A DNA stretch of 64,000 nt. Origin: a virus. Shown piece by piece: positions 10,174 through 20,933 of this stretch; position 1 is the first letter of the stretch, and each line of letters begins with the position of its first letter. Where the stretch lies: positions 1-64,000 of IMG/VR virus record IMGVR_UViG_3300031576_000010; one strand, given 5' to 3'. The notes below the pieces were generated by a model. It had not been told where the DNA came from, made no database searches, and saw only the letters and a list, made by a program, of their open reading frames with translations. The position numbers were made by a program, and so were the translations under genes.

Positions 10174-10395
10174 GTGGGTCGGATCAAGGTCGAGGTGAAT
10201 GGCAAACTGGCCATGTTGCGCGAGGAGACGTCCATGGAGACGCGGGAGCGGGAGACTCGCGAGGCGTGGGCGGTTGAGGACCGGCAGACCCTCGTGTGCG
10301 CGGCCAAGAGCCGCCGGGTACCCGGCGCCGACCACATGAGCAGAGCTAAGCTGCTCGACGCTATTGTGGCGATTGAGCTGGGCAAGGATCGATGA
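10174..10395 (+). CDS. Small protein with SAP/Rho-N-like C-terminus
   Basis: 73 residues from GTG 10174. The C-terminal half (SRRVPGADHMSRAKLLDAIV) resembles the helix-extended-loop-helix of SAP or Rho-N domains that bind nucleic acid; the match is short and tentative. The stop overlaps the start of the helicase gene by 4 bp, so the two are probably translated together. Confidence 0.45.
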   Translation: MGRIKVEVNGKLAMLREETSMETRERETREAWAVEDRQTLVCAAKSRRVPGADHMSRAKLLDAIVAIELGKDR

Positions 10396-11288
10396 TCACG
10401 CTGGCGGGCGCGGGGCGCGACCGACTCGCCATCTTCCTGGTCGACGAACCCGAGGATGCCGCGGCGGTGATCCGCTCGCTCCTGAACGTCCGGGAGAACC
10501 GGAACCAGACCGGCTTCTTCCTCCCGGTCCACGACTTCCCGATCCTCCGCGAACGGCTCGACCGCCTTGGCATCACCCAAACAACCGGCCGGCGCGAAAT
10601 GGACGACAACGCCGCACTCGCGGTCCGGTCGTACCTGGCCGCGCTCGAACGGAACGATCGCATCAAGGCGGGCGACCTGAACGACGAGATCGTCGCGGAC
10701 ATCGAAGCAGGTGCGCTCAAGAGTCCCCTGTGGACCGACCAGGTCGCGGACGTCCGGTTCATCCTGCGGCACGGGCGTGTCGGGGTGTTCAGCGAGATGG
10801 GGGTGGGCAAGAGCTTGACCGCGCTCGCCGGCTTCGTGGTCTTGCGGGCCCGCCGGCTCGCAAGGTACGCGCTGGTCATCGGGCCCAACGCGGTCAAGCA
10901 GAACTGGATCCGGCAGATCGCCCAGCACACCAGCATGACGGTCGAGGAGCTGGGGAACGGGCGGTCGACCGTCTTGCGCCGCATCAAGAAGCAGGCGGCC
11001 CGCCGGACCGACGTCTGCATCACGCACTACGAGGCGCTCCGGTCCGACGACATCCGCGACCAGCTCGTCAAGATGCCGTTCGACATGGTCATCTTAGATG
11101 AGATTCATCGTGCAAAAAACCTCGACACCGACACGACCAAGGCGGTGGCCGACACGCTCGCGCGGATCCGCCCGGCCGTCGAGCTAGTCGAAGCTGATAT
11201 CGAGCTGGTGACAGAGACTGGCATCGTATTGACGACCGCACTTCTTCCTGCTAGCATGGCCATTGGTGATGAGGTCGAGTTCCTCTAG
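10392..11288 (+). CDS. SNF2-family helicase, N-terminal half (split gene)
   Basis: 298 residues. Walker A is SEMGVGKS (134-141), motif Ia lies in VIGPNAVKQNWIRQI, and motif II is DEIH (236-239). Similarity to SNF2/DEAD helicases stops after DTLARIRP (about residue 261, base 11,172). The last 37 residues are unlike the family and contain the promoter of the following HNH gene, so they look like read-through into inserted DNA. The missing motifs III-VI are found 8.6 kb away at 19866-20933. The protein could work only if it pairs with that second half. Alternatively it is an inactive remnant. Confidence 0.8.
   Translation: MITLAGAGRDRLAIFLVDEPEDAAAVIRSLLNVRENRNQTGFFLPVHDFPILRERLDRLGITQTTGRREMDDNAALAVRSYLAALERNDRIKAGDLNDEIVADIEAGALKSPLWTDQVADVRFILRHGRVGVFSEMGVGKSLTALAGFVVLRARRLARYALVIGPNAVKQNWIRQIAQHTSMTVEELGNGRSTVLRRIKKQAARRTDVCITHYEALRSDDIRDQLVKMPFDMVILDEIHRAKNLDTDTTKAVADTLARIRPAVELVEADIELVTETGIVLTTALLPASMAIGDEVEFL
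11229..11257 (+). promoter_or_regulatory. Promoter for HNH gene
   Basis: TTGACG (11229-11234), 17-bp spacer, TAGCAT (11252-11257), directly before the HNH start. It lies in the tail of the SNF2 N-terminal half, supporting the view that this tail is inserted sequence. Confidence 0.5.
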
Positions 11289-11958: not shown

Positions 11959-14049
11959 ATGAGCGACTACATCGACGACGTCTTCGGGGCGAACGGCATC
12001 TTGGCCAAGAGTGACCTGCGCGCCGCCGTCCGGCCCGGCCAGATCGAGATGGCGCGAGCGGTCGACCATTCGCTCCGCGCCCGCGCCAACATGATGTGCG
12101 AGGCGGGAACCGGGACGGGCAAAACGTTCGCCTACCTGGTGCCCGCGATCGCCAACCAGTTGGTCACGATCGTCGTGACGCGCAACAACCTGCTGGCCGA
12201 CCAGCTCTACCTCAAGGACCTGCCGACCCTCCACCGGCTCCTTCCGTGGAAGTTCACGTTCGCGCAGATCAAGGGGAAGGGGCGGTACCTGTGCGTCGCC
12301 AAGTTCCCGGGGCTTCCGGGCTCATCGCCCCCGCCCCTACAACGGTACGATGACGCCGACGTCGACGCCGAGATCCAGCGGTGGGCCCCAACCACCCGGA
12401 CGGGCGACTTCTCGGAGCTGTCGTTCACCATCCCGGACCGCCTGCTCCACCGCTACACCGCCAACCAGGACGAGTGTGAACGGCGCAAGTGCCCCGCGTT
12501 CCAGTCGTGCCACTACTACGCGGCCAAGCGGAACGCGGCAGTCGCCCAGGTGGTCGTGACCAACTACCACGTGTTCTTCTCGCACCTGCGGTACGGCCGC
12601 GTCCTGCCCGACTACGACGTCGTCATCATGGACGAGGGGCACGACGCCCCCGACATCGCGCGCGACTTCTTCGGGTTCCGCGTGACCGCTGGGGCGGTCA
12701 GGAGGATCGCGGGTCTGGTCGGCAGAGCCTCGAAGGCCAGCGGGGACGCGGCCGCCGCGCTCAAGAACGAGTTGATCGACTCGGCCAACACCCTGTTCGC
12801 CGACCTGGCTGCCTACCAGGCGATCGAGCGGGGCATCCGGATCAGGAAACCGATCGCCGTCGAGTACACCGGAACCGTCCGGCTGCTCCGCGATGCCGCC
12901 AGCCAGTTGAAAGACGAGGCCGATGAGCTGGCTGTAGAGGACCCGCCTGGCCGCCAGGAGTTGCTCCGGCATTCCCGCCGCGCCTCCGAACTGGCCCGCC
13001 AGATCACCGAGGCGGTCAACCTCTCGAAGCACGAGTCGTTCATCTACCAGATCGACGGCGATCGCGCCGACCTGGTCAGCCGGGCGATCAACCCGGCCGA
13101 GTTTCTCGCGCGCCATCTCAACGTCGGGCCCGCGCCCGACACCGAGGAGTCGAGCGCGGCCGAGAATGACGATGGCGTCTACGACGACCAACCGGCCGAC
13201 GAGACACCCGAGCCCCACGCGCACGTCATGACGTCCGCGACCATCACGACCCCGACGCTCGGCGGGGCGCCGTCGTTCGAGTTCGTGCGCACCACCATGG
13301 GGATCAAGGAGACGGGCGTCTGCTTGGCCGAGTCGCCATTCCAGCTCGACCGACAGTGCCTCCTGATCATCCCGTGGGAAGCGCCCAGGCCGCCGGAGGG
13401 TCGTCTGTCCCCCGCCACCAGAGCCGAACGGATGAAGGGGTGGCACGCGGGTGTCGCCAGCATGGTGGTCAAGGTGGCGGAGCGGGCGCGCGGCCGTACC
13501 CTCGCGCTCTTCACGTCGAACGCGTCGCTCAACGCATCGTACGACGCGCTCGTGCGCGCGGGCCTGCCGTACCAGATCCTCCGGCAGGGTGGCGGCACCC
13601 CCAACGCCAAGCTGGTCGAGGCGTTCAAGCGGGACGTCAACTCGGTCCTGCTGGGCGTCGACTCGTTCTGGCAGGGGATCGATGTGCCTGGCGAATCGCT
13701 CTCGTGCGTCGTGATCGACAAGCTGCCATACAAGCACAGCGGCATCGACCCCATCCTCGACGCGATCGAAGAGCGGGACGGACGCGACCGTGCGTTCACC
13801 GAGTACAACCTGCCCCGCACCATCATCCAGTTCCGACAGGCGTTCGGCCGGCTGATTCGGTCAGAGGCCGACAAGGGCGTGGTCGTCATGCTCGACCCGC
13901 GCGTCATCGAGCGAAACCGCGCCCAGTTTCTCGGCGCGTTGCCTGGTGTGCGACTCAGCCAGGACCTCGGCGACATCCCATGCTTCCTCGACGGCGCTGC
14001 ACCGATCCCATTCGTGTTGCCGCCTCCGCCGCGGGTTGGAATCCGATGA
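11959..14049 (+). CDS. DinG/XPD-family Fe-S DNA helicase
   Basis: 696 residues, the normal length for DinG. Walker A AGTGTGKT is at 49-56. Fe-S cysteines are C112, C173, C178 and C184, in the spacing of XPD/DinG enzymes, followed by VVTNYHVFF. The Walker B box reads DEGH (225-228). The C-terminal half has SFWQGIDVPGESLSCVVIDK and the motif VI sequence QFRQAFGRLIRSE. These enzymes unwind DNA 5'-3' and displace R-loops. The stop overlaps the start of the Cas12-like gene (ATGA), so the two are coupled. In type IV-A CRISPR a DinG helicase is the working enzyme, which suggests a similar partnership here, although an ordinary replication role is also possible. Confidence 0.85.
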   Translation: MSDYIDDVFGANGILAKSDLRAAVRPGQIEMARAVDHSLRARANMMCEAGTGTGKTFAYLVPAIANQLVTIVVTRNNLLADQLYLKDLPTLHRLLPWKFTFAQIKGKGRYLCVAKFPGLPGSSPPPLQRYDDADVDAEIQRWAPTTRTGDFSELSFTIPDRLLHRYTANQDECERRKCPAFQSCHYYAAKRNAAVAQVVVTNYHVFFSHLRYGRVLPDYDVVIMDEGHDAPDIARDFFGFRVTAGAVRRIAGLVGRASKASGDAAAALKNELIDSANTLFADLAAYQAIERGIRIRKPIAVEYTGTVRLLRDAASQLKDEADELAVEDPPGRQELLRHSRRASELARQITEAVNLSKHESFIYQIDGDRADLVSRAINPAEFLARHLNVGPAPDTEESSAAENDDGVYDDQPADETPEPHAHVMTSATITTPTLGGAPSFEFVRTTMGIKETGVCLAESPFQLDRQCLLIIPWEAPRPPEGRLSPATRAERMKGWHAGVASMVVKVAERARGRTLALFTSNASLNASYDALVRAGLPYQILRQGGGTPNAKLVEAFKRDVNSVLLGVDSFWQGIDVPGESLSCVVIDKLPYKHSGIDPILDAIEERDGRDRAFTEYNLPRTIIQFRQAFGRLIRSEADKGVVVMLDPRVIERNRAQFLGALPGVRLSQDLGDIPCFLDGAAPIPFVLPPPPRVGIR

Positions 14050-15959
14050 AAAGAAAACTATTGACTACCGAAACAATGGACGATGACGTCACGCGAGAGA
14101 ATCAAGAGGAAGAGAAAACGGGACCAAAGCGCCATGTCCCGCGAGAGCGAGCAACCGCTGCCCTCCGACTCGATGTTCGACGCGTCACGTCCACCGGCCT
14201 CGTCGGCAAAGAGGCATGGGCATTGCTCACCTCCGAGTATGAAAAGGTCGCGCGGGGCGTCCAAGACGGACTGACACGTGTGTGGTTGCGGATCCACCAG
14301 CTACGTCAACAACACGGTCGAATCAGGTGGCCGTTTACCGCTGAGATGACGGCGTGGCCTGAAGGTACCCCATTACCAGTCGAGTGGTTTCGGGACACCG
14401 ACTTCGACCGGGATCCGACCGTAGGTCCGAGGTATATGCCGCCTATCATTACCGGCAAGACAAGCAAGCCATTGAAGAATCAACCCAAGAAGCCCGACTT
14501 CCTTGCGGCCTACCGGGCCGGCGAATGGTTGGGCGTACAGGACACCATCTACTACGCGCTCCGTGCCCAAGGGGTCGGTAGCGCGATCGCTGCCAGCACA
14601 TCCAACAAGATCGCCGGCTCGGAGCTGTCCTGGTCGAAGTTGATCCGGCTGATCAATGGTGGACTCAAGTATCCGGTGCTCGACCGAACATTCATGATCA
14701 TTCCAGGGAGTGACTGGAGCCTCTCGTTCTCTCCGGTCGAGCGCCCCGTCACCAAGAAGGATGAGCACGGCAACGTCATGGTCGACAAACGCGGCAAGGA
14801 GCTTTACGTACGCGATGCGGCCAAGAAGGTCATGTACGCGCCCGTCTTCGATGAGAACGGCGACCCGGTCCTCGCGCCCGTCATCAATTTCCGCGTCGGT
14901 ATCGACAACCTGCCTTTACGACTCACGTGCGAGCGGTTCCACGGGAAGGGCGCGCGTTCACGCAACGTCATCCTCAACCACTTGGCAGCGATGGGGGCAA
15001 GTGTCGGAGATGTCAACACCGACCAAAAGAAGACGCGAAGGAAGAAACCGCTCGATGCCGACGAAGTGGCCGCTATCATAAAGACTGGCTGGCACCGCGG
15101 AGCCATCACGATCCGTCGTGTCTGTGAGAGGGCCGGGGCCAAGACGTCGTGGCAAGCGATCATCGCATACCACTCGCCAAGACCGGACAAGAACACGGAG
15201 ACAGACGCGGTCGTCGCGGTACACCGAGGCATCGCCAACTTTCTGACGGTTGCGGTGCTGTATCCTAATCGAGACAAGCCGTGGTTTCCGCATGCTTTCT
15301 CCGGCGACGGGATCGTCCGATCGAAAGTGATGTTCGGGGCTGAGCGTGATCGAGCACGACGCCGCGGCGGCGGCGTTGGGCGGCGGGCGCGCAACCGCCT
15401 GATGGCAAAAGTGGGTGACAAGGAAAGACGGCTCAGCAGTCTTCACTGCTGGCGGGCTGCCGCCTGGCTACAACGTATCATCGAGGAGGTAAATCCCAAA
15501 CTAGTCATCCTAGACGATTTCTCCACGCCGATCGTATCGGACTCTGGAGAATCATTGCCAGGGATGATTACCAGGTTTCCGTTCGCCCAACTCAAGCTGA
15601 AGGTGATCGACGCCATCACTAGAAGGGCGGGCGTTGAAGTCATCGAGGTACCGTCGAAGTACGTGTCGGTCCAGTGCCCAGTGTGCAACAACACCGATCA
15701 GGGGAACATTCACAAGCGTGCGGGCGTACGGTGCATCCCGCATTTGGAACGAGATGATCGCAACGCTGGCACGTTCGTGGAATCGGGTGAGTTCCACTGC
15801 ACCATGTGTCACACGGTCGGCGACTTGGATCGGATCGCCGCGCTAAATCTGCTGATTCGAGTAGGTGATCCGGACGGGAAGCTCCGCAAAGGGCTGTGGC
15901 GATACTATGAGCAGATCAACAGGGTCAAGGAGGCGGAAAAGAAGAAGAAGGTCGGATAG
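14046..15959 (+). CDS. Cas12-like CRISPR effector with degraded RuvC active site
   Basis: 637 residues, about the size of compact type V effectors. The C-terminal third aligns with TnpB/Cas12 RuvC order. RuvC-I is AVVAVHRGIANFLTVAV, with His393 where catalytic Asp is expected. A bridge segment is KVGDKERRLSSLHCWRA. RuvC-II is KLVILDDFSTP, with Asp490 replacing the catalytic Glu. Then come VEVIEVPSKYVSVQCPVC (C544, C547), a second pair FHCTMC (C585, C588), and RuvC-III DRIAALNLL with Asp595 kept. Two of three metal ligands are changed, so DNA cutting should be lost or weak while guided binding may persist. It precedes the CRISPR array by 288 bp. The N-terminal 390 residues match nothing I can name. 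The gene is less GC-rich than DinG, hinting at separate acquisition. Confidence 0.85.
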   Translation: MKRKLLTTETMDDDVTRENQEEEKTGPKRHVPRERATAALRLDVRRVTSTGLVGKEAWALLTSEYEKVARGVQDGLTRVWLRIHQLRQQHGRIRWPFTAEMTAWPEGTPLPVEWFRDTDFDRDPTVGPRYMPPIITGKTSKPLKNQPKKPDFLAAYRAGEWLGVQDTIYYALRAQGVGSAIAASTSNKIAGSELSWSKLIRLINGGLKYPVLDRTFMIIPGSDWSLSFSPVERPVTKKDEHGNVMVDKRGKELYVRDAAKKVMYAPVFDENGDPVLAPVINFRVGIDNLPLRLTCERFHGKGARSRNVILNHLAAMGASVGDVNTDQKKTRRKKPLDADEVAAIIKTGWHRGAITIRRVCERAGAKTSWQAIIAYHSPRPDKNTETDAVVAVHRGIANFLTVAVLYPNRDKPWFPHAFSGDGIVRSKVMFGAERDRARRRGGGVGRRARNRLMAKVGDKERRLSSLHCWRAAAWLQRIIEEVNPKLVILDDFSTPIVSDSGESLPGMITRFPFAQLKLKVIDAITRRAGVEVIEVPSKYVSVQCPVCNNTDQGNIHKRAGVRCIPHLERDDRNAGTFVESGEFHCTMCHTVGDLDRIAALNLLIRVGDPDGKLRKGLWRYYEQINRVKEAEKKKKVG

Positions 15960-16247
15960 GGATTCTCGGCGGCGAGAAGGAGCTGTGAAGCGATGGTCCC
16001 CAACAGACGGCCGACTGCACCGGCCGACTGGGTACCGCACTGTCGGTATCGCAAAACCACCGCGAGCATACGGGCCAGCAGCTTCACATCTCCTTCTTGC
16101 CGCAGAGTACGGCGTGCGAGCGGTCCAGTGGTGCGTAACCAACAGAACCGACGTTCTTTGACAATTCAAAGGTAGCTGACGACGTTTTGCTAGGTGCTCG
16201 CAATCCCGTCGCCAGGTACGCGGATTTGTACCGCTACCTGGCGACGG
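15960..16247 (+). other. Leader region between Cas12-like gene and array
   Basis: 288 bp without a convincing gene. It holds a weak promoter (16158-16186) and a strong inverted repeat beside the first CRISPR repeat. I looked for a stretch complementary to the repeat (a tracrRNA anti-repeat) and saw only short, unconvincing matches. The first 190 bp show nothing else I can name. Confidence 0.6.
16158..16186 (+). promoter_or_regulatory. Candidate leader promoter for CRISPR array
   Basis: TTGACA at 16158-16163, 17-bp spacer, GACGTT at 16181-16186; the latter differs from the TACGTT box at 7559 by one base. A start near 16193 would run through the hairpin into the array on the + strand. The -10 box is weak. 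Confidence 0.4.
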
Positions 16248-16248
16248 G
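16205..16248. repeat. 14-bp perfect inverted repeat abutting first CRISPR repeat
   Basis: Left arm CCCGTCGCCAGGTA (16205-16218) and right arm TACCTGGCGACGGG (16235-16248) are exact complements around a 16-nt loop that can itself form a GCGG/CCGC stem. The right arm shares its last G with the first base of the array. No T-run follows on either side, so it is not a classical terminator. Confidence 0.75.
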
Positions 16249-19240
16249 TTCGCATCGGTAGGGACGATGCGGTGGAGTGCAGGAAGCGGATCAGCGAACG
16301 GGAGAAGGACCGCCGGGAGGTTCGCATCGGTAGGGACGATGCGGTGGAGTGCAGGTCGGCCGCTATCAGTGCGATCGCCTCGTTGAGGGTCGTTCGCATC
16401 GGTAGGGACGATGCGGTGGAGTGCAGGAGATAGTGACATCGGAATGGGACCGATTCTGAACCGAGTTCGCATCGGTAGGGACGATGCGGTGGAGTGCAGG
16501 GGCAGCGTCGAAGCGCAATGCGCGGCCGACGCGGAGTTCGCATCGGTAGGGACGATGCGGTGGAGTGCAGGCGGAAACGGAACTGCATGACGCGCATGAA
16601 GCTGGGTGGTTCGCATCGGTAGGGACGATGCGGTGGAGTGCAGGCCGTGGGCCAACCGGGCGAGCCAGTCGGCCTGGTTCGGTTCGCATCGGTAGGGACG
16701 ATGCGGTGGAGTGCAGGCAGTTTTCGGCCCGCCAGGCGGCGCCCGCTCTCACCGTTCGCATCGGTAGGGACGATGCGGTGGAGTGCAGGGTGAAGTAGCC
16801 GTCGGCCGATGCCGCCGCGCACCTGCCGGGTTCGCATCGGTAGGGACGATGCGGTGGAGTGCAGGGAGCGAGTCGCGTTCGATCAACCATCCCGGCCCGA
16901 CGTTCGCATCGGTAGGGACGATGCGGTGGAGTGCAGGGGCGCAAGCTGAAGGTGCTATTCGATGTCGGCTTCTCGTTCGCATCGGTAGGGACGATGCGGT
17001 GGAGTGCAGGGAGAACAAGGACCAGAGCCTGAACGTTGTCCTTGACGTTCGCATCGGTAGGGACGATGCGGTGGAGTGCAGGTGGGCCGAGCGATACGGC
17101 AAGTCCCTCGGGCTGGACGGTTCGCATCGGTAGGGACGATGCGGTGGAGTGCAGGTCCTGATCGGCGGCTCTACGGGATCAACGTGAGTAGTAGTTCGCA
17201 TCGGTAGGGACGATGCGAAGGAGTGCAGGGCGATCGTTTCGCGAACCGGGGTCGGCACCGTCTACTTCGGTTCGCATCGGTAGGGACGATGCGGTGGAGT
17301 GCAGGGGAGGTTCCGACGGCGCCTCCTCCGAAAGACTGGAGTTCGCATCGGTAGGGACGATGCGGTGGAGTGCAGGTCGTGTGGCGCGTCGACGAAGCGA
17401 TGGAGCAGGAGTGGTTCGCATCGGTAGGGACGATGCGGTGGAGTGCAGGATCGGAATGCCGCGCGCCAGCCCCTGCCGCACGATGGGTTCGCATCGGTAG
17501 GGACGATGCGGTGGAGTGCAGGGTCGGACACACCTCGGCCCTCGCGCGGCCAGGCGACAGGTTCGCATCGGTAGGGACGATGCGGTGGAGTGCAGGCACG
17601 AGACGAAACACCCACGACTTGCGCGGGCGGAGAGTTCGCATCGGTAGGGACGATGCGGTGGAGTGCAGGGGGAGTGCGCGGTCTGGGTTGACGATGAGGT
17701 CGCGAGGTTCGCATCGGTAGGGACGATGCGGTGGAGTGCAGGAACGCGGAACCAAGGCGACCGAGTTCCTCCCACTCGGGCGGTTCGCATCGGTAGGGAC
17801 GATGCGGTGGAGTGCAGGGCGTGCTGACCGGTGCCGGGCGGTAGCGATCTGACCGGTTCGCATCGGTAGGGACGATGCGGTGGAGTGCAGGTCCATCGAG
17901 GGCATCCCCCTCCTAAGCGGAGCTATCGGTTCGCATCGGTAGGGACGATGCGGTGGAGTGCAGGATCGGGTGCATCGAGAATGGCCCTGGTCGCTCTCGC
18001 AGTTCGCATCGGTAGGGACGATGCGGTGGAGTGCAGGAACTGGCGGTTCTCGGGGGTGAGGGCGCAACGGACGCGTTCGCATCGGTAGGGACGATGCGGT
18101 GGAGTGCAGGATGGTCGAGGTGTTCATGACGTCGAGCGGAACTGGGGTTCGCATCGGTAGGGACGATGCGGTGGAGTGCAGGATGGTCGAGGTGTTCATG
18201 ACGTCGAGCGGAACTGGGGTTCGCATCGGTAGGGACGATGCGGTGGAGTGCAGGCAGCGCAGCGACGATGGCCACAGGCGTCACTGGTGCGGGTTCGCAC
18301 CGGTAGAAACGATGCGGTGGAGTGCAGGGTTCGCCAACACGATCATGAAGTATGAAGTCTCGGCATCTGCCGATCGCACCGGTAGGGACGATGCGGTGGA
18401 GTGCAGGCGATGAATGGCTGCTCGGCGAGCTTGCCGACTTCGCGGATCGCACCGGTAGGAACGATGCGGTGGAGTGCAGGTGGTAGTGCGACAACGAGAA
18501 GTCGTGGTGACGGACCAGATCGCACCGGTAGGATGCGGTGGAGTGCAGGCCCAACTCCCCTCGAACCAACCGCGCACCAAATCGCCGAGATCGCACCGGT
18601 AGGGACGATGCGGTGGAGTGCAGGTACGAAGCGAGGCACGTCCGAGGCGAGATTCTGGACTGATCGCACCGGTAGGGACGATGCGGTGGAGTGCAGGAAC
18701 AACCCGGGCTGCACCGCAACGTGTGCGAGCGCCTAGGAACGATGTGGTGGAGTGGTGGAGTGGTGGAGTGCAGGAACGTGTTGTCGGTCCACTCGATAGG
18801 AACGATGTGGTGGAGTGCAGGCAGCCAGGTCAGCCAGCACCCTTCAGCACCCTTGCGGTGATGCCTGTTCGCACCGGTAGGAACGATGCGGTGGAGTGCA
18901 GGCAGGCGGGTGCCGCGTCAGGTGCCCAGCTCGGCTCCAGGTTCGCACGATGTGGTGGAGTGCAGGGCACAGATCGCGGGTGACTTGGTGCTCGCGGAGA
19001 CGCACTGGTATGAACGATGCGGTGGAGTGCAGGGGGCGCGACGAGATGCCTGTCGCCCCTAGGATACCGGATCGCAGTAGGAACGATGCGGTGGAGTGCA
19101 GGACCACAACGTGCGGGTCCGTCAACTGCCGGATTGCGCACCGGTAAGAACGATGCGGTGGAGTGCAGGATCTGGTTCTCGTCGTTCTTCGCTTGGGCCC
19201 AGGTTGTTCAGCACCGGTAGGAACGGTGCGGTGGAAGTAA
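16248..19240. CRISPR. CRISPR array, about 42 repeat units of 36 bp
   Basis: The repeat begins GTTCGCATCGGTAGGGACGA and continues TGCGGTGGAGTGCAGG (36 bp in total on the + strand). Spacers are mostly 35-40 bp. Copies 1-28 (16248-18254) are nearly identical, except copy 14 at 17194, where GGTG reads GAAG. From copy 29 (18293) rightward they drift: GCATCG becomes GCACCG, internal deletions appear (18518, 18941), and one unit near 18726-18773 has a GGTGGAGT expansion. The spacer at 18111-18146 is repeated exactly at 18183-18218. Each repeat holds a 7-bp hairpin, CGCATCG/CGATGCG. Transcription direction is unresolved: the decay gradient and leader favour +, while repeat structure (hairpin then AAC before the spacer) favours -. 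No Cas1 or Cas2 lies nearby. Confidence 0.97.
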
Positions 19241-19272: not shown

Positions 19273-19869
19273 ATGGAAGAGAGAAAAAGCAGGTACACAA
19301 ACTGGCTCACAGAGCTACGTGCGACACGTGCTCAAAGGGCCAAGGACGAGATCGCGTTCTACGCTCGCATCGCCGAGTTCGAGACCGATACGGACTCGTG
19401 GGAATGGACAGGTATCTCGTTCGACCGAATCCTCAAGCTGGAATGCGGCATCTCGCCAGACCGCTACCGCGCGTACGTCAAGGCTGTCCGGCTCATCGGC
19501 CATGAGATGCTGCTTGGACTCGGGATGGACGTTGCGCTACGGCTCCGTCGTTTCATCGTTGATGACATTATACTGGCGACCCGTCTTTATGAGCGGGTTG
19601 CCACCCGCATCATTGGGTTCTCTGCTACGCACGACCGCTACCCAAGCCCAACCTACATCGGCCAGATCCTACGTGAAGAAGCCAAACGGCTCGGCATCGT
19701 CGTGCCGGTCAAGCAGAAGACCGAAGACAAGCTACAAACGGCGATCGGTGCGCTTCGCCGCATCGCTGAAGCGAAGGGTCTGAGCCGCAAAGAGATGCAG
19801 ACGATCGCCGCCGAAACGCTCGTACAAGTGGACATTGAGGTGGATGGTGTGGAGGACCACCCGGAGTGA
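19273..19869 (+). CDS. Unknown helical protein next to CRISPR array, 198 aa
   Basis: ATG 19273 follows a good ribosome site (GGAGAGGAAG), 32 bp after the last degenerate repeat. The protein is mostly helical and charged: KSRYTNWLTELRATRAQRA near the start, a WEWTGISFDRILKLECGIS segment, and a C-terminal GLSRKEMQTIAAETLVQVD helix. No catalytic motif or membrane segment is visible, and I do not recognise a family. Its codon use resembles the Cas12-like gene more than the helicases. Its stop overlaps the start of the SNF2 C-terminal half. An accessory or regulator of the CRISPR system is a guess based on position only. Confidence 0.7.
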   Translation: MEERKSRYTNWLTELRATRAQRAKDEIAFYARIAEFETDTDSWEWTGISFDRILKLECGISPDRYRAYVKAVRLIGHEMLLGLGMDVALRLRRFIVDDIILATRLYERVATRIIGFSATHDRYPSPTYIGQILREEAKRLGIVVPVKQKTEDKLQTAIGALRRIAEAKGLSRKEMQTIAAETLVQVDIEVDGVEDHPE

Positions 19870-20933
19870 AGGGCCGCATCCGCTCCGTCCGCCCGTTCCA
19901 GGAGGCCCGCCGCGTCCTCCTGACCGGCACGCCTGTCAGCGAATCTCCGCTCAACGCGTTCCCCGTCCTCCAGCTCATCGCGCCCGAACGCGTTCCGTCG
20001 AAGACCCGGTTCGACCACCACTTCATCGTCCGGGCCGCCACAAAGGCGGGGCCCGTCACCGTCCAGAAGGCGGTCGGCTACAACAACCTCGACGAGCTGA
20101 AGCGGATGCTGGAGGCGGTGTCGGTCCGGCGCCTGAAGGCCGACATCCGCGGGATGCCCGACCGCGTCGAGACGGTGCGGTACTGCCAGCCATCCGGCCG
20201 CCAACACGACCACTACCGCGAGATCCTCAAGGGCATCCTGGCCGACATCGCCGCGTCGCCCGACTGGGCCCTCACGCTCGACATCGCGTGCGTCAAGTTG
20301 CTGCGGCTCCGCCAGGTGCTCAACTCGCCCGAGATCCTCGGGCTCGACGGGCGGTCCGGCAAGTACGACGAGCTGGATGGAGTGGTCGAGGAGGTGCTCT
20401 CTGATTCCGGCCCATACGAAGCGAAGCTGTTGATCTGGACCGAGTGGAACCGGGCGGTCGACCTCCTAGCCAGCCGGTACTCTGGACACGGAGTCATCAC
20501 GGTCGACCAGCGGACCACTCAGCAGCAACTCGCCGAGTATGAGAGGACGTTTGACCGTTCAGATGAGCGGATTGTGATTGGGACGCCAAAAAAGGCCGGG
20601 ACGGGGATGGACTGGCTGGCTAGGTGTCGGACGGCCATTTACGTCGAGAAGACGTACTCGCTGGTCAACCATGTTCAAAGCATAGATCGGATCGTCCGGA
20701 GGGTCGGGGAGGGTGACCCGGCCGACTCACCGGCTGTTCAGCAGGTCAAGCGAATCAAGCGGTCACCCGCGTCCATCCTGTATCTCCACGTGCAAAACAG
20801 CGTTGACGACGCGGTTGATTTCGTCCTCCGGAGGAAAATCGATCTTGGCGTCGCCCTCCTCACAGAAGATGCTAGACTCATGGAAGATGGGCGTATGGAT
20901 TTACTCCAGATGCTCCAGACGGGCATGAGCTAG
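19866..20933 (+). CDS. SNF2-family helicase, C-terminal half (split gene)
   Basis: 355 residues from GTG 19866, which overlaps the previous stop (GTGA). It starts just before helicase motif III (VLLTGTPVSES, about residue 17) and has no Walker A or DEAH box. It contains the usual second RecA domain: LLRLRQVLNSPEIL, LLIWTEWNRAVDLLASRY, IVIGTPKKAGTGMDW and motif VI VQSIDRIVRRVGEG. With residues 1-261 of the gene at 10392 it makes one complete SNF2 helicase of about 610 residues. The repeated RIRP at both edges (ARIRPA and RIRSVRPF) suggests where the gene was opened. Confidence 0.8.
   Translation: MKGRIRSVRPFQEARRVLLTGTPVSESPLNAFPVLQLIAPERVPSKTRFDHHFIVRAATKAGPVTVQKAVGYNNLDELKRMLEAVSVRRLKADIRGMPDRVETVRYCQPSGRQHDHYREILKGILADIAASPDWALTLDIACVKLLRLRQVLNSPEILGLDGRSGKYDELDGVVEEVLSDSGPYEAKLLIWTEWNRAVDLLASRYSGHGVITVDQRTTQQQLAEYERTFDRSDERIVIGTPKKAGTGMDWLARCRTAIYVEKTYSLVNHVQSIDRIVRRVGEGDPADSPAVQQVKRIKRSPASILYLHVQNSVDDAVDFVLRRKIDLGVALLTEDARLMEDGRMDLLQMLQTGMS

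Follow-up and report, generated by a model that had tools for sequence, protein, structure and literature searches.

The first 64,000 bases of the 99,908-base virus record IMGVR_UViG_3300031576_000010 (the whole stretch of DNA analyzed here, called the window) carry a gene for a Cas12f-related protein beside a large clustered regularly interspaced short palindromic repeat (CRISPR) array. A tailed phage is indicated by clear baseplate matches and weak terminase matches in the record. On balance, the sequence makes it probable that this protein is the single effector of a phage-borne type V system, is defective as a nuclease, and binds DNA under RNA guidance, silencing its targets by occupancy. 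By analogy with Cas12m2, which has the same altered RuvC triad, the phage probably uses the effector to switch genes off rather than to cut them.

RuvC active site of the effector

The effector gene (positions 14046 to 15959, plus strand) is an intact open reading frame (ORF) encoding 637 amino acids, identified as Cas12f related by Pfam, by a family profile, and by the clade in which it falls. The protein matches Pfam Cas12f1-like_TNB (E = 1e-6, above the cut-off), and residues 525 to 602 match PF07282. Both cysteine pairs of the TNB zinc site, C544/C547 and C585/C588 (15675 to 15809, plus strand), are intact. The RuvC-I, RuvC-II, and RuvC-III motifs read VAVHRGIANF, LVILDDF, and GDLDRIAALN, respectively. 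Alignments and a codon check, all on the plus strand, place His393 (CAC; 15222 to 15224) at the RuvC-I position of the catalytic Asp and Asp490 (GAC; 15513 to 15515) at the RuvC-II position of the catalytic Glu, with the RuvC-III catalytic Asp retained as Asp595 (GAT; 15828 to 15830). The resulting triad is His-Asp-Asp (HDD).

The family profile aligns with AsCas12f1 (8j12; E = 1e-26), placing the His of "vavhrG" opposite the RuvC-I Asp (IDLGV), the "leD" position opposite the RuvC-II Glu (MEDL), and "rdvD" opposite the RuvC-III Asp (NADYNA). When the RuvC part was modeled with AlphaFold2 (mean predicted local distance difference test [pLDDT] score, 64.5), H393 closed strand 1, D490 closed a later strand, and D595 opened the last RuvC helix; in this predicted structure, the three residues match the canonical RNase-H fold sites. 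The best PDB matches of the model are Cas12f structures (E, ~5e-10), and the dCas12f structure 9n9c is among the fold matches. The original prediction that His393 and Asp490 replace Asp and Glu, with Asp595 and the zinc CxxC pairs kept, was thus borne out by both profile alignment and structure prediction.

A phage lineage with histidine at RuvC-I

Two close relatives were found. One is gp117 of Virus Rctr197k (KX853510), annotated as a "transposase-like protein," and the other is an ORF (L029:5992-7386) on the 392-kb IMG/VR jumbo contig IMGVR_UViG_3300029893_000001. Both are phage-borne proteins of 464 to 467 amino acids encoded directly upstream of a CRISPR array, and both have HRG at RuvC-I, Glu at RuvC-II, and Asp-x-Ile at RuvC-III, giving a His-Glu-Asp (HED) triad. 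They are 43 to 47% identical to each other and 28 to 30% identical to the window protein. The RuvC-I His codons in the three phages are CAC, CAC, and CAT; because two independent phage relatives share the His and the codons differ, it is neither a chance change nor a sequencing error. All three proteins also have Ile two residues past the RuvC-III Asp, where the compared Cas12f and Cas12m proteins have Asn. The window effector therefore has the RuvC-I His, the RuvC-III D-x-I, the CRISPR link, and the nearby accessory gene that mark this phage HxD clade.

In a tree of 13 proteins, which included five Cas12m proteins (one of them a Meiothermus silvanus plasmid protein; MmCas12m was not in the set), the three phage proteins formed a clade with 99% support, or 97% without the motif (HRG) columns. 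The clade lay outside the five Cas12m proteins and nearest to Cas12f/TnpB. Scored against profiles, the window protein reached 78 bits with the HED pair, 39 with TnpB, 9 with the Cas12f pair, and 6.1 with Cas12m. Since the three CRISPR-linked phage proteins that share the His form one clade, the RuvC-I Asp-to-His change is best read as an old, inherited trait of the phage lineage. The Glu-to-Asp change at residue 490, seen in the window protein only, appears to be private to it, both relatives having retained Glu. The earlier view that two of three catalytic residues are replaced holds for the window protein itself, but because the His is lineage-wide and Asp490 alone is window specific, it describes the extreme of a family in which one of the three is replaced.

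The jumbo-phage homologue was recovered by a scan with an alignment that included Cas12f relatives; further alignment scans (A3, A6, and A8) returned the same jumbo contig and no additional relatives. Neither P0001 nor P0002, used singly as protein queries against collections of viruses and genomes, gave a match, and of 16 genome matches to the HRG motif written as degenerate DNA, none was a Cas12 once translated. Rctr197k also has a second CRISPR array, beside the V-U1/Cas12m-type effector gp108 (L002:14379-16247; PADLOC Cas12u1, E = 6e-105) with a RuvC site resembling Asp-Glu-Asp (DED), so that one phage holds two distinct systems of type V. In Alicyclobacillus phage MMB025, the neighbor of an annotated CRISPR array is a Cas12f1-like protein (L011:3941-5284) that is annotated as a transposase and has its DED triad intact.

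Comparison with known type V systems

The HDD triad is known from MmCas12m (H317-D485-D579) and GoCas12m (H322-D497-D590), which leave double-stranded DNA (dsDNA) uncut and act by silencing (PMC10442227, PMC11013384). In the structure of MmCas12m, the His and the RuvC-III Asp coordinate a single Mg2+, no second metal is present, and the RuvC site helps to grip the displaced strand (PMC10442227, PMC11013384). The D485A substitution of Cas12m2 is reported to weaken binding. Besides the identical triad, the window protein shares with Cas12m2 (V-M) a size of ~600 amino acids, a single effector with an array, and the lack of an obvious trans-activating CRISPR RNA (tracrRNA). However, its RuvC-I to RuvC-II spacing is 97 residues, compared with 168 in MmCas12m (PMC10442227). 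Membership in Cas12m, tried first because of the HDD triad, was rejected on tree, profile, and fold, Cas12m2 ranking 32nd in Foldseek, behind Cas12f. Cas12m2 is, as judged from sequence, the closest mechanistic parallel, but the window protein is evidently not a Cas12m, and the His change appears to have arisen separately in the Cas12f-like phage lineage.

AsCas12f1 is the best solved relative by both profile and fold, and the TNB zinc domain is common to the window protein and Cas12f1 (V-F). Cas12f1, in contrast, has a DED triad and a tracrRNA, whereas the window protein has HDD, no detected tracrRNA, and ~150 to 170 extra N-terminal residues. We class the effector as neither Cas12m nor Cas12f proper, since the defining features of each group were not borne out when tested. 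It also differs from its own relatives, which are shorter, have HED, and lie beside arrays of 4 to 6 repeats with clear tracrRNA candidates. Like the TldRs, it is a phage-borne, RuvC-altered TnpB-superfamily protein with a conserved partner gene, but it is accompanied by a 41-repeat CRISPR array rather than a single TldR-type guide RNA cassette. As to Cas12k (V-K) features, no rve transposase was found in the record by a search whose control worked; there was no TniQ match, although the TniQ control search also gave none. Loss of RuvC is recurrent in type V and is compatible with binding-based interference (Makarova et al., PMC12669027).

CRISPR array and guide RNA

The array (16248 to 19235, plus strand) contains 41 recognizable copies of the 36-nucleotide (nt) repeat GTTCGCATCGGTAGGGACGATGCGGTGGAGTGCAGG, of which 27 are identical; those at the 3' end are degenerate. 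The repeat folds on itself (-11.9 kcal/mol). Transcription from the plus strand would fit the relatives and the degeneracy of the far end; were the minus strand transcribed, the hairpin would adjoin the guide, an arrangement seen in many type V systems. The spacers are mostly 35 to 40 nt long and mostly unique. A single spacer-repeat unit is exactly duplicated (18075 to 18218); one frame of this spacer translates to PVPLDVMNTSTI, which loosely, and not significantly, resembles the segment HAHVMTSATI of the phage's own DinG-like helicase, and its target possibly lies in a related helicase. Cas1 and Cas2 had no match in the 99.9-kb record, which may be a fragment, nor did RNase III. An outside origin of the spacers, perhaps acquired via host machinery, is suggested by the size of the array and by their uniqueness.

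Between effector and array lies a candidate structured RNA (15960 to 16247, plus strand), recognized by folding against shuffles. The fold of 15960 to 16283 has a z score of -6.3 against dinucleotide shuffles, 23-nt arms occupy 15969 to 15991 and 16081 to 16103, and a long near-perfect hairpin (~16206 to 16247) ends exactly at repeat 1. In the relatives, putative tracrRNAs (L002:8852-8995 and L029:7398-7545), also between effector and array, are homologous and structured, with 83% mean column identity over 148 columns, and the jumbo contig RNA contains a near-full anti-repeat (-45 kcal/mol; 0/200 shuffles). These RNAs were not matched in the window by alignment or covariance model, no anti-repeat stood significantly above the shuffled background of duplex energy in the intergenic region or the whole window, and an Rfam search gave no match. 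A shared 14-nt motif, GCGAGCGGTCCAGT, was rejected (p, 0.01 to 0.05; the reverse-strand control was about equally high).

Accessory gene

Directly following the array is a gene (19273 to 19869, plus strand) for a 198-amino-acid protein related, by blastp, hhalign, and profile, to the effector-adjacent gene of the two relative loci. In those loci, the genes just upstream of the effectors, encoding P0006 (Rctr197k) and P0007 (jumbo contig), are homologous to each other (4e-18), and among 50,697 phage records P0007 matches Rctr197k only. The window accessory protein matched P0007 with a blastp value of 4e-4 and gave an hhalign value of 3.3e-5 over 85 columns; when the P0006/P0007 profile was run against the 650 ORFs of the record, it came out on top (E = 0.0036; next, 1.2). 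A domain search of the protein recognized no domain. An accessory gene thus appears to accompany all three effectors, the similarity being weak and position and specificity in agreement; its product may have a role in the working of the effector. Because the GC contents of the effector gene (58.5%) and the accessory gene (58.0%) are both below that of the window (64.5%), joint import is hinted at.

Genomic neighborhood

The ATG of the effector gene overlaps the stop codon of the upstream DinG-like helicase gene (ATGA). An SNF2-type helicase gene is split into an N half (10392 to 11288) and a C half (19866 to 20933), which correspond to positions 682 to 832 and 840 to 1142, respectively, of phrog_62. 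The 8.6 kb between the halves hold an HNH endonuclease gene, the DinG-like helicase gene, the cas12 gene, the array, and the accessory gene. GC content within this interval is low for the HNH gene (60%), as it is for cas12 and the accessory gene, but not for the DinG gene (67.5%).

Proposed mechanism and alternatives

In the mechanism that we infer, the array at 16248 to 19235 would be transcribed and cut into CRISPR RNAs (crRNAs), and the effector would bind a crRNA, find complementary DNA beside a short protospacer-adjacent motif, and open an R-loop. Because the pocket is His-Asp-Asp, we propose that the effector would hold the displaced strand, probably via one metal ion as in Cas12m2, and leave dsDNA uncut. 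Once bound, the effector would keep its target from being transcribed or replicated; the likeliest targets are other mobile elements or those host genes that the phage encounters on infection. By analogy, the window protein most likely works as Cas12m2 does.

The conserved, nondrifting His, the two acidic ligands (Glu and Asp) retained by the relatives, and the intact RuvC-III Asp and zinc sites would also suit a protein that is still a nuclease, with His393 as a metal ligand in crRNA-guided nicking or in the cutting of single strands or RNA. We regard this as unlikely: His317 of Cas12m2 binds one Mg2+ with the second metal absent and dsDNA uncut (PMC10442227), and the window protein has also undergone the Glu-to-Asp change, the same second step as in Cas12m2. 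Somewhat less likely still is a counterdefense decoy, in which effector and structured RNA would bind host CRISPR RNAs or targets and block immunity, like the dead-RuvC phage Cas9 (II-C2). There is precedent for such decoys (PMC11656645, PMC12669027), and the gene is phage-borne, adaptation genes were not detected, and a strongly structured RNA lies beside it, but 41 repeats separated by varied and mostly unique spacers would be superfluous in a decoy, and the array resembles a working guide library.

We give slightly less credence again to a phage-borne gene regulator, TldR-like or dCas12f-like, that would direct a few guides to host or phage promoters and draw its regulatory output from the accessory protein. 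Inactivated TnpB proteins in prophages are RNA-guided repressors (PMC13418256), dCas12f is among the fold matches, and the accessory gene has been kept in three loci; however, what is described for TldRs is a guide RNA cassette and not a large variable array, and the spacers had no own-genome match above shuffled controls. Decay toward a pseudogene, to which the two changed catalytic positions and the degenerate distal repeats might point, is highly improbable: the gene is otherwise maintained, with a long intact ORF, retained zinc ligands, and 27 identical repeats, and the same change occurs at the same site in three phages.

Several observations weigh against a silencing RNA-guided binder. 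Cas12m proteins with a DED triad also do not cut, and converting HDD to DED does not restore cutting (PMC10442227, PMC11013384); given these DED proteins, the triad as evidence is neither sufficient nor required. The complete HDD state has been seen once, since the relatives keep Glu. Confidence in the full-length model is poor (mean pLDDT, 43), which limits interpretation to the region past the N-terminal 380 residues, and neither tracrRNA nor anti-repeat was found in the window to account for guide loading. The spacers gave nothing convincing against phage and plasmid records (the best plasmid match was 36 nt at 89% to a Streptomyces plasmid; E = 0.07) and no match above shuffled controls in their own record, and so point to no target for the suggested silencing of competing phage or host genes. 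The original prediction of a RuvC-altered RNA-guided binder draws good support from the position of the residues, the conserved His in three phages, and the published structure and silencing data for the HDD protein Cas12m2, but the active-site letters alone do not prove that cutting is lost.

Evolution and significance

A possible account, which we put forward tentatively, is that a Cas12f-like phage lineage gave up RuvC cutting, separately from Cas12m but through the identical Asp-to-His first step, and acquired a dedicated accessory protein used in the working of the effector. The window protein would then have converged on Cas12m2 by reaching full HDD, with an enlarged N-terminal part and guides that may dispense with a tracrRNA, and would represent an undescribed phage-specific variant. 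Phage-borne and RuvC-inactivated type V effectors are known in principle (PMC12669027, PMC11656645, PMC12607003, PMC13418256); no description of the present HxD Cas12f-like phage lineage or of its accessory gene was found in the open-access literature searched, which is weak evidence that none exists.

If this account is true, an HDD site that grips but does not cut would have evolved at least twice in type V, in Cas12m and in phages, with the HED relatives looking like an intermediate, and the lineage would serve as a natural experiment on the changes by which a guided nuclease becomes a guided repressor. A silencing CRISPR system carried by phages, with a partner gene of its own, would also be added to those known, which bears on competition between phages and on compact tools for binding.

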